Part shown: in pieces, positions 2,177 to 51,409 of the stretch
Layout: each line of letters begins with the position of its first letter
Numbering within the stretch: position 1 is the stretch's first letter
IMG/VR virus record: IMGVR_UViG_3300027710_000011
Location: 1 to 64,000 of that record
DNA: 64,000 nucleotides
Source of the DNA: a virus
Reading direction: 5' to 3' (one strand)
Made by a program: the position numbers and the translations under genes
The notes under the pieces: model-generated
The model's input: the letters and a program-made list of their open reading frames with translations, nothing else
What the model was told of the DNA's origin: nothing
Databases searched by the model: none

Positions 2177-5100
2177 ATGCATACCCCATTGATCCCTCCC
2201 CGCGGCGGCGCTTCTACCGTCGCGTCTTACGTTGGTCCTGCTGGCTCCATCGTCGTCAACACTGACGCAAAAACAATCCACGTCCATGACGGCGTGACCG
2301 CTGGCGGCTTTGCTTTGTCCAAGGTTGGCCACCAGCACACGCTGAACGAAATCACCGCAGCTTTGGGTTTCACGCCTGCTGCTTTGAACGTCAGTGGTCA
2401 AGTCTCCGTTGCTCAACTGGGTACCGGCACTGCAAATGCGACTAAGGTCCTGTTTGGTGACGGCACTTGGAAAGACGCTCCCACCGGCGGTGGTGGCGGC
2501 TCGAGCAATAGCTTGTCTGGCACTGGCACTGTTTCGCCTTCTACTTCGGTGTCCGGCGTTTACGCTGGTGTTACGGCCGGTGTTGGTGAGATGTATCTGG
2601 TCAACGCTGGCGCAGGTTCCAACGAAAAGGCTATTCAGTTCGCCCAGCGCGCTGATGGTGTTTTCCAGATCAATCTGTACAACGACGCTCTCAACAGCAA
2701 TCCCACGTTCTTCTCGCTGGATCGCACCGGCGCAGTTCCTAACATCGCTACGTTCAATGTGAACTCGATGGTGGTGAACGGCGTTCTTAGCGCCAATTCT
2801 TTCGCCGGCGTGGGCACGGCTCTGACAGCGCTGAACGCTTCGAACCTCGCTTCTGGCACAGTGCCTGTTGCGCGATTGGGTAGCGGTACCGCAAGTGCCA
2901 GTACCTACCTCCGTGGCGACGGTACTTGGGACGCTATCAGTGCAGGCGGCTCCGTTGAAGCTGGGAGCATTCTTCCAGCTGCCGGCACCAGCTCTGTCAC
3001 ACTGACTACTGGTAACCAGATTGGTGCCAACACCAGTGCTGACGTCACTATCGGCTCCGGTTCGTCGGCCAACGGCCTGACTGGTGCAGTCACGATTACT
3101 TCCGGCGGTACCGGTTCACTTGGTTCCGGTAACGTGACCTTGAAATCGGGTCAGACTGGTTCTGGCTACGGCTCGGGCGAAGTGATCATCGGCACCGGTG
3201 CGACCAGTGGTAATTCGGGAACACCTGCTGTTTCTGGCGCTATCACGATTGCTACTGGTGGTTGGACTGGTACGGGTACGAATCAGTCGTCGGGCAGCAT
3301 CACGCTGCAAACCGGAACGAAAGCAGGTTCCGGTGTTGGTGGTGACATCAATCTGACAACCGGTACTGGCGGCGAGATTGTGATGACTTCTTCTGTCATC
3401 ACAACAACCGGCAACCTCGGAGTTGGTGGCTTTGGTGGTAACGGTGCCACGCCTGGTCGAATCTTCGCTGCTTCCGGCGGTATCCAGGTTGATCAAACAT
3501 CCTTGGTACCCTCGAATTCGTTGGGCGGTAGCTTCCGTATCGGTTATCTGAATTCTGCGATCAGCGGAACATCGGATGGCTTCCTGACCTGGATGGGCGC
3601 GGCAGCAACGCTGAATGTGTCCGGTGCCAATGGCTCTGTTCTGCTGGCATCGCGTTCTGATTCCGGCACAGCCGGCGTCAGCGTTGCGACAAACAACACG
3701 GCTCGCCTGTTCATTGCTGGCAATGGCGCGTGGGGTTTGTCTGGCGCTAACTACGGCACAGCTGGTCAAGTGTTGACATCGAGCGGCTCGGGCTCTGCAC
3801 CGACCTGGACGTCGCCTGCTGTTGACACCTTGAACGCCACCGGTCCTCGTGGCTTCAACATCGCGACTGCTGCGGTGACTGCCGGTACTTCGAATGACGG
3901 AACTTATCAGATTCCTTGCATTGGTTTGACTGCGCCTAACGCGCCGTTGAACGAAAAAGTTTGGCAATTCAGCGCAAGTAGCGGTGGTGGTTTTGAACTC
4001 GGCGGTTACAACGACGCGTTGCAGGGTGGCTCGTATAGCGCTTATATCACTATCGGTCGCAATGCCGTCGCAGCAAATACCATGCAGTTCAATGCGGCAG
4101 CGATCACATTGAACGGTGCGGTGACCGGTACGTCGTTTGCAGGTTCTGGCGCTGGCTTGACTGCGCTGAATGCTTCGAACTTCAGCACAGGCGTCATGGC
4201 CACCGCTCGTCTGGGTTCCGGTACAGCTGACGCATCGACGTACTTGCGTGGTGACGGCACGTGGGCGGCAGTTTCGGCTGGCGCATCTACGTCGTTGAGC
4301 GCTACAGCGACATCGCCTGCACCTAGCGGTACTTCTGGTACGACGGGCGTGTACGCATCGTCTGTTGGCGGTCAGCCGACGTTCTGGTTCACCAACTCCA
4401 CAGCGGCTGCCAACACCAAGACATCCGTTATTGACCAGACATCCGGCGGCTTGTTGCGGTTCAATTTCACAAATGACTTGTGGAATACAGCAACGGCATG
4501 GCTGTCGGCACAGCGTGTCAGTGGTTCGAACGTTGCGTCTGCTGTCAAGCTGGATGCGAATTCTGTCAATCTGGCAGGTTTGTCTACGGGTCTGCAGCTG
4601 AACGGCTCTGCCGGTACAGCTGGTCAAGTGTTGACTTCGCAAGGCGCCAGCGCTGCTCCTATCTGGACGTCCGCCAGCGTTACGGCTTTGAACGGCACGG
4701 GTACCTTCACACCATCGACTACGACGACAGGTGTTTTTGCTGGCGCAGCCGGCGCTGAGTCACGCATTGTGTTCTCGGCATCTGGAGCCACTGCTGGTAA
4801 CAAACTGTCAATTTTGGCTGGACATTCAGGCGGCTTCCAAGCTAGCTTTGTCAACGACACGTACGATAGTCAAACAGTCTGGTTGCAGGTTGCTCGTTCT
4901 GGTAATACAGCTACGAACATCACGCTCACAGGCACAGCCATCACGCTGAACGCTGCTGTGACTGGCACGTCGTTTGCAGGTACACACACTGGTGTTGGTA
5001 CTGGCTTGACTGCACTGAATGCTTCGAACCTGGCTTCTGGCACGGTGGCAACTGCTCGCCTGGGTACAGGTACTGCCGATAACAGTACCTACCTCCGTGG

Positions 5101-10821: not shown

Positions 10822-10856
10822 GCCAGTGACGGACAACCGTCACTGGCTCTATGCCG
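10822..10856. terminator. Bidirectional terminator
   Basis: GCCAGTGACGG (10822-10832) pairs with CCGTCACTGGC (10837-10847), with GCATAAA before and CTATGCCGTC after. It separates the plus SbcC-like gene from the convergent minus lectin gene. Confidence 0.8.
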
Positions 10857-42665: not shown

Positions 42666-42674
42666 GTGATATGT
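42666..42674 (-). promoter_or_regulatory. Candidate early promoter motif ACATATCAC
   Basis: On the minus strand TTACATATCAC lies 61 bases upstream of the start at 42605. It is one of six ACATATNAC matches, all minus-strand and all upstream of minus-strand units. Confidence 0.5.
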
Positions 42675-50209: not shown

Positions 50210-50229
50210 TCTAGTGACTCCGTTAAAAT

Positions 50230-50256
50230 CGTATTTGTTGTTCTATTACAAATACG
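50230..50256 (-). promoter_or_regulatory. Inverted repeat upstream of the 391-aa gene
   Basis: CGTATTTGT (50230-50238) and ACAAATACG (50248-50256) are perfect inverted repeats, separated by 9 bases and 21 bases upstream of the ATG at 50209. This could be an operator, a leader hairpin or part of a promoter. The rest of 50257-50436 holds only a small TGGTA/TACCA hairpin (about 50402-50416). Confidence 0.5.
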
Positions 50257-50436
50257 TCTTGTTTACCAAAGCTCGTGGGTTGTTCACAAACTTTGATCCC
50301 CTTTTTACGTGCGAATACTTACTACTGTATCTGACGTAATTCTCTTTACATTGCCTTTCGCATACTTTTTTGAGCACGCTCAGACATAGGACTTTACAAG
50401 CTGGTATTTTTTACCATCTTTCAAGGGACAGCATAA

Positions 50437-50470
50437 GGGGAGTAGGAGGCGCCCAGCCTCCTACTCCCGA
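50437..50470 (-). terminator. Terminator of the giant RNA
   Basis: GGGAGTAGGAGGC (50438-50450) pairs perfectly with GCCTCCTACTCCC (50456-50468). On the minus strand it continues CTTATGCTGTCC, like the other TTATG-family hairpins. Confidence 0.8.
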
Positions 50471-50856
50471 TAGCCGGGTCATCGCTGACCCTAAGTGTGG
50501 GTGAGCTAGGGTGGTCAACCAAAAAACCACCGTAACTCACGCCCCTTCCACACTCCTCACAATGCTGTCTGCTCCGACATTTCTATCAGGCACTGGGTCA
50601 GCTCCCCAGCTCATTGTAAGATCAGATTCGCCGAACCTGACTTTCGCTCTTGTTGAGGCTACTCCAGAACTCACCTCAGTTTAATGCTCCGCCATCTGGA
50701 TTGAGCATTTTTCTCTTACCGTATTGCGTGTACGAACCGAACAAACTCCTACAATACAATACGTGAGAAAACGGCGCACCAATGACTTCAGCGAGTCTAG
50801 TGCGCCTTCATTGAAGACGTATACTGGGGGTAGCCCAGCACACGTCGTCAACGTAT

Positions 50857-50921
50857 GAACAGCATAGACAACGAACACTCAACTCCCCGAAAGGAGTCGA
50901 GCATTCGCTTCTATACTGTTT
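50857..50921 (-). ncRNA. 65-nt long hairpin within the giant RNA
   Basis: GAACAGCATAG...ACTCC pairs with GGAGT...CTATACTGTTT over almost the full length. At least four non-Watson-Crick positions are G-U on the minus strand but A-C on the plus strand, which fixes the transcribed strand. It could be a processing site or a protein-binding arm. Confidence 0.7.
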
Positions 50922-51383
50922 AATGATAATCCTAGGTCACCATCCAAGTCGCCAAGCCGTTGCGTACAGCCTGGTTTGAGCGCCCTCCACAAGAGCCAGT
51001 GTTGCTGGCAATCATGCTTTCAGGTGACTAAGGGCTATCATCGTCTAGTCCTCCGCGCTTCACAGATCTTGGGATTGTTAAGCCCGCTTTCGGGGGCGCC
51101 CTTAATCTCCACGCGATGGCGCTATCTTTCAGATAACTTGCTAGTTAAGATGTCACCTTAACTAACCTGATGCGGCATGGGTTGACAACCCACCCTAGAG
51201 CCAACTTTCGTCGGCCCCATTCAACTATCATGTGTTTACGCTTTCGCGCTATGATAGTGCCTAAGGCATCACTCTTGGCCACTGATGAATTACTCCAAGC
51301 CGGAGCCTATTCCATCAGGTGATCTTCTTCACACGATCGTCTTGCACGTAAAAACTTGCATTACAACCAGCGATTCCACGTTT

Positions 51384-51392
51384 GTGATATGT
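51384..51392 (-). promoter_or_regulatory. Candidate early promoter motif ACATATCAC of the giant RNA
   Basis: The minus strand reads CCACATATCAC, between the stop of the 202-residue gene (51410) and the first helix of the giant RNA. It is the same 9-mer as at 42666 and 62835. Confidence 0.5.
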
Positions 51393-51409
51393 GGCTGTGC
51401 AAATCTAGA

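Follow-up and report, generated by a model that had tools for sequence, protein, structure and literature searches.

A conserved, structured non-coding RNA of phiKZ-like jumbo phages that matches no Rfam family

What occupies a 1,200-base gap between two genes of a jumbo phage if it does not encode a protein? The gap lies at 50210–51409 of the window, by which we mean the whole stretch of DNA analysed, bases 1–64000 of the 276,772-base virus record IMGVR_UViG_3300027710_000011 (G000; a genome of about 277 kb). On the basis of two proteins, the DnaB helicase (46% to Burkholderia phage FLC9) and the major capsid protein (43%), we assigned this genome to the phiKZ-like jumbo phages. The gap is flanked by minus-strand genes of 391 and 202 amino acids, its longest open reading frame has 65 amino acids, and the window itself contains no tRNA genes. 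The first-pass annotation had described about 940 bases without a plausible open reading frame between two minus-strand genes, and this held, as did its observation as a whole, that of a gene-free, strongly structured minus-strand stretch at 50437–51392. We predict that the gap holds one structured RNA, whose start is inferred from a promoter motif and whose end is inferred from a terminal hairpin. The features are as follows.

51384–51392, minus strand: phage promoter motif ACATATCAC (17 exact genome copies, all on the minus strand)
50438–51383, minus strand: predicted structured RNA of ~940 nt (fold z −14 to −20; no open reading frame above 65 amino acids; conserved 3′ domain)
50714–51383, minus strand: 5′ region, highly structured, of lineage-specific sequence, with two GAAA tetraloops (z −10.4 on the minus strand versus −6.4 on the plus strand)
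50858–50920, minus strand: very long, near-perfect hairpin within the 5′ region, with 3′ arm CTATGCTGTT (minimum free energy (MFE) fold and hairpin scan)
50683–50709, minus strand: P1, a hairpin of the 3′ domain, with loop L1 UCCAGA at 50695–50700 (7 of 7 pairs changed on both sides across members)
50654–50678, minus strand: P2, a hairpin of the 3′ domain, with loop L2 UCUGGA at 50663–50668, complementary to L1 (6 of 6 pairs covary)
50621–50641, minus strand: P3, a hairpin of the 3′ domain, missing in some members (8 of 9 pairs changed on both sides)
50556–50620, minus strand: multibranched element, in which closing helix P4 surrounds hairpins P5 and P6 (covariation)
50493–50554, minus strand: long hairpin 3′ of the core, AGUGUGG...CCACACU (MFE fold; an analogous long hairpin is at the same place in G003 and G004)
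50475–50490, minus strand: GNRA hairpin GGGUCA-GCGA-UGACCC (MFE fold)
50432–50468, minus strand: 13-bp terminal hairpin followed by TTATG, terminator-like (the same arrangement occurs dozens of times in the genome)

We found that the minus strand of 50437–51392 folds far better than expected, with an MFE of −418.9 kcal/mol compared with −309 ± 5.6 for dinucleotide shuffles (z −19.8); a second shuffle set (n = 40) gave z −14.0, and the fold has 24 hairpin loops. The plus strand folds less well (z −7.4 and −9.1 in two runs). Both parts of the RNA are structured on the minus strand, with z −10.4 for the 5′ part and −6.7 for the 3′ part. The minus-strand MFE fold contains four GNRA loops against a shuffle mean of 0.12, namely GAAA near 51245, 51209 and 50583 and GCGA near 50485, and the plus-strand fold contains none. 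The first-pass annotation had named four GNRA loops that are pyrimidine-rich on the other strand. Three of the four were correct and the strand difference held; its loop at 51079 is not in the MFE fold, and it missed the loop at 50583.

The predicted RNA is bounded by phage signals of its own. In the 277-kb genome, ACATATCAC has 17 exact copies, on the minus strand only, against a mean of 2.0 for composition-matched 9-mers; 15 of the 17 are intergenic, and 11 lie 13–119 nt 5′ of a start codon. The earlier proposal of a promoter-like motif at 51384–51392 therefore held, and we call this recurrent element a real promoter motif. Examples within the window are at 42674, 51392 and 62843 (minus strand); the polymerase and the stage that the motif serves were not assigned. 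The proposed 13-bp terminator-like stem at 50438–50468 held as well, with TTATG directly after it, and its role as a terminator, which we infer from sequence alone, is probable. The same hairpin and TTATG close the RNA in six relatives (G004, G100, G111, G109, G113 and G098), and in G003 the RNA closes with a comparable hairpin plus TTTTTATGCC. Late promoters of phiKZ carry TATG (PMC4666361), and TTATG may therefore instead start the next transcript; either is possible, and the two have not been told apart. Across the genome, dozens of GC-rich hairpins are followed by (T)TTATGC (for example, at 10822, 14044, 37608, 50438 and 58409 of the window), which may represent a phage-specific terminator or terminator–promoter element. 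The 3′ arm CTATGCTGTT of the hairpin at 50858–50920 (minus strand) resembles the tail of the terminator-like hairpins of this phage, and it is possible that this hairpin is an internal termination site within the RNA.

The first-pass annotation had likened the stretch to giant phage RNAs, as a new member or a new class, and had proposed the GOLLD, ROOL, OLE and HEARO models as a check; all four were run and all were negative. A cmscan of the window RNA with all 4,227 Rfam families, up to an E value of 10, returned only two chance matches far below the cut-off, and no member of the RNA matches any of these families. GOLLD (RF02032) had no match in 50437–51392 up to E 10, and its best score in 13 records was 7.1 bits against a cut-off of 150, elsewhere than at the RNA. 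ROOL (RF03087) had no match at the RNA in the same 13 records and a single 12.9-bit chance match elsewhere in G059. The OLE, HEARO, group I and II intron, tmRNA and RNase P models did not match the window RNA. A coding region, a tRNA or tmRNA and an intron were each considered as the identity of the stretch and ruled out.

Relatives of the phage were fetched by helicase alignment, and in the nearest of them long minus-strand gaps with structure are interspersed with the tRNA genes. From the window sequence alone we built a covariance model of the 3′ domain (R1), which matched G034, G004 and G003 by direct cmsearch at E values of 8e-9 to 9e-7. A model built from these four sequences (R2) added seven more records, G059, G113, G098, G111, G109, G100 and G099, at E values of 6e-9 to 3e-5 or better. 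Thus, ten other jumbo-phage records carry the 3′ core of ~170 nt, or 11 with the window, although these represent only about eight independent lineages; G111 and G109, like G113 and G098, are near-identical in the RNA region. G003, by its length of 279,845 bp and its one tRNA-Asn(GTT), is taken to be Ralstonia phage RP12 (PMC5468394). The RNA ranges from ~300 nt in the G113 group (short forms in G113, G098 and G099) to ~1,050 nt. A 13.7-bit match in G001, a possible member, was not counted, and a 22.9-bit match in Erwinia phage pEa_SNUABM_54 was rejected, as it lacks the core hairpin and lies antisense to a coding sequence.

With blastn the RNA had no match in 50,697 phage records, and a DNA-level genome search returned a single lead, G034 (80% over 55 nt), which was weak but proved to be genuine. 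Among viral contigs, the pattern TTAAACN{2,12}GAGTTCTGGAGTA returned G034 and eight coding chance matches, GGGAGCWGACCCARTGC returned G003, G004, G034 and chance matches, and TTGGGMGCCTGACCYAATGC returned only the group of G113, G098, G109, G111 and G099. The sole match of a genome-contig scan, in Spirochaetales, was due to chance, its flanking helices being absent. The genome-collection search with R1 missed G003 and G004, both found by direct cmsearch, and its negatives are therefore weak.

The homologues, for which the first-pass annotation had suggested searching related phage genomes, show very strong covariation. Across the eleven members (10 distinct rows), 37 of 44 pairs changed on both sides and 96.2% of cells are paired; none of 500 shuffles reached the real value, and slid controls gave 34–41%. 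With four members the corresponding figures were 28 of 45 pairs and 0 of 500 shuffles. All nine pairs of P4 covary, with 98.8% of its cells paired; P6, with its GNRA loop GAAA, also covaries, and P5 has the invariant core YUGGG-AGCWGA-CCCAR. G003 and G004 align at 73% over the whole ~1-kb RNA, and of their 183 consensus pairs 22 are double-changed and none is broken. Because the alignments had been fitted to the structure, the covariation figures are somewhat inflated; given the margin and a first model made from the window alone, this inflation is too small to matter.

In each of the nine members examined, loops L1 and L2 of the two adjacent hairpins are complementary over 5–7 bp, and a change in one loop is compensated in the other. 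The pair reads UCCAGA/UCUGGA in the window and G034, CCGAG/CUCGG in G003, CCAAG/CUUGG in G004, UCCUACA/UGUAGGA in G059, UCCAGU/ACUGGA in G113 and UCCAAU/AUUGGA in G099, and only 3 of 20,000 permutations reach this complementarity. The loop–loop contact thus covaries, and it remains possible that it forms within one chain or between chains. The first-pass annotation would have been refuted by a lack of covariation in homologues or by a conserved coding frame, and neither came true; on its further refuter, the absence of a minus-strand transcript, there are no data.

The 3′ core is conserved among the 11 records, and the 5′ parts cannot be aligned between groups; we detected no homology between the 5′ region of the window RNA (50714–51383) and that of its relatives. 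A second module (model R3) is found upstream of the core in G034, G100 and G111/G109, and consists of CCCGG...GGUGGAU...CCGGG, a long helix and then CGAAACCUUC. It is present in three copies in G034 and also in G001, G039, G046 and G080, and it is absent from the window RNA, G003, G004, G113 and G059. Its presence in some members and absence from others makes the RNA class look modular, with an exchangeable 5′ part. R3 was considered as a 5′ domain for the window RNA and rejected on account of its absence there. The R3 sites are L107 and L188 (G034), L293 (G100), L290 (G111), L113:9497–9614 (G001), G039:307071–307209, G046:183925–184080 and G080:76205–76329. The module contains a probable pseudoknot (GRGU/ACCY), and it may define a separate large RNA family.

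The major capsid gene adjoins the RNA in 6 of the 11 records. In G113, G098, G111, G109 and G100, the RNA has the major capsid gene on one side and, on the other, a gp122-like gene followed by a phage RNA-polymerase subunit gene (gp122-like and neighbouring gene names are taken from PhiPA3), and in G099 it also follows the capsid gene. The copies in the window, G003, G004 and G034 are not beside the capsid gene, and the 391- and 202-amino-acid neighbours in the window have no relatives next to other copies. A tRNA-Leu is directly 5′ of the RNA in G100 and G111/G109 and a tRNA-Ser in G059, and tRNAs lie within ~2 kb of it in G003, G004 and G034. The tRNA-Leu of G111 (L290, oriented ~3789–3988; the same in L291 of G109) is split by a group I intron (RF00028, 51 bits), and G100 has an intron-less tRNA-Leu at the corresponding place. 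In PhiPA3, Phabio, Psa21, PA1C, SL2 and RVTF4, the capsid gene is followed by only ~200 bases, which do not contain the RNA. Several phiKZ-like isolates thus lack the RNA at the corresponding place, and the lineage can therefore do without it.

From sequence alone, these results establish an RNA gene that is conserved, structured and non-coding, has boundaries of its own and belongs to a class that Rfam does not contain. Because homologues covary strongly and no Rfam, GOLLD or ROOL model matches, this is a new class rather than a member of a known one, so that the giant-RNA reading and its 'new class' branch are supported and the membership branch failed. The class is probably new in phiKZ-like jumbo phages, although an earlier description outside the open-access literature searched cannot be ruled out.

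Among the closest known systems, GOLLD, a large RNA of phages, has no known function, is often found near tRNA genes, has a conserved 3′ half and a variable 5′ half, and uses loop–loop contacts and GNRA or A-rich loops (PMC12286853); both GOLLD and ROOL were shown to assemble into RNA-based multimers (PMC12286853). GOLLD forms a 14-mer RNA nanocage. The present class shares with GOLLD its size, tRNA-island setting, 3′-conserved and 5′-variable layout, loop–loop contacts and GNRA loops, but differs in core sequence and helix order, in having short 300-nt forms and in being found so far only in phiKZ-like jumbo phages. Two traits of the GOLLD/ROOL-like kind are met: a large structured phage RNA adjoining tRNA genes (in relatives, not in the window) and conserved covarying helices with loop–loop contacts. 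ROOL is likewise a large phage or prophage RNA near tRNA islands, with pseudoknots and kissing loops; its 5′ and 3′ parts, however, are intertwined and co-evolving, whereas the 5′ part of the new RNA is exchangeable. The GOLLD and ROOL RNAs studied by cryo-EM are larger than the ~300-nt forms (G113, G098 and G099). OLE and HEARO are also ornate large bacterial non-coding RNAs, but none of their partner protein genes was identified next to the new RNA. The phi29-type pRNA has two mutually complementary loops that allow ring formation. The new RNA is also a phage RNA with two such loops, but is 300–1,050 nt rather than <200 nt long, has no sequence–structure match in the Rfam scans and lacks a fixed link to a packaging gene.

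On balance, and without transcript data, we lean towards a large structured RNA encoded by a phage gene of its own as the best explanation, although some members lie directly downstream of structural genes, leaving room for a 3′-UTR or locus-specific role. The phage RNA polymerase would transcribe the RNA during infection, and the product would accumulate as a structural RNA rather than as an mRNA or leader. The paired loops and GNRA loops may then build tertiary, probably chain-to-chain, contacts, through which copies would join into a multimer made of RNA, as GOLLD and ROOL do, and this multimer could act as a scaffold or compartment inside infected cells. Self-assembly is the best mechanism we can offer, by analogy and with only moderate support; that these contacts yield a multimer falls a little short of an even bet, as adjacent hairpins with complementary loops can also kiss inside one chain, and expression, oligomerization and function are untested. 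A bolder, merely possible reading is that phiKZ-like phages encode, next to their capsid and RNA-polymerase genes, one more natural class of RNA-only complex that assembles itself. Assembly would then be driven by the conserved 3′ core, by means of its covarying loop pair, and each lineage would owe a particle or cargo of its own to exchangeable 5′ modules.

Among the rivals, a cis-acting element, that is, a long structured 5′ leader or 3′ UTR controlling a neighbour's expression or RNA stability, is favoured by the position between same-direction genes, including the capsid and gp122-like/RNA-polymerase genes of the five records above. We consider it unlikely, as the RNA has its own promoter motif and terminator-like end, its downstream gene varies among members, and its size and complexity exceed those of known leaders. 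Less likely still is a packaging or assembly RNA that would form a pRNA-like ring through its paired loops and aid capsid assembly or DNA packaging. In its favour are the frequent capsid neighbour and the presence of two complementary loops in each chain; against it are the lack of an Rfam match, the copies away from the capsid gene (the window, RP12, G004 and G034), the many phiKZ-like phages without the RNA beside that gene and a size far larger than that of pRNA.

The elaborate fold and the group I intron in the neighbouring tRNA-Leu of G111 might suggest a degenerate intron or ribozyme, but that intron is a separate element ~600 nt upstream of the core, the window has no match to an Rfam intron or ribozyme, and no split gene flanks the RNA, which makes a catalytic or mobile RNA very unlikely. 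These three alternatives are each less likely than the stand-alone structural RNA, but are not excluded. Short open reading frames of up to 65 amino acids leave a formal case for chance structure or an undetected coding region, which is all but excluded: covariation across eleven records and z values of −14 to −20 exclude chance, and insertions and deletions occur helix by helix without regard to reading frame.

Very few giant ornate RNAs are known, and for the two phage classes, GOLLD and ROOL, no function is known. That an independent class has another core but the same layout and setting suggests that the strategy arose or diversified more than once. Because Ralstonia phage RP12, which is in culture, has a copy and the class is present among phiPA3 and phiKZ relatives, expression, assembly and loss of function can be tested directly, and the loop pair L1/L2, which switches sequence in step, offers a precise point for mutational tests.

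More structured minus-strand non-coding gaps, of 0.4–1.7 kb, are found in G001 (L113, 8879–17089, among seven tRNA genes) and G002 (L140, 4733–18312). Elsewhere in G000, three further stretches (L144:16259–16661, L150:3128–3809 and L147:17089–17462) fold better than shuffled sequence.
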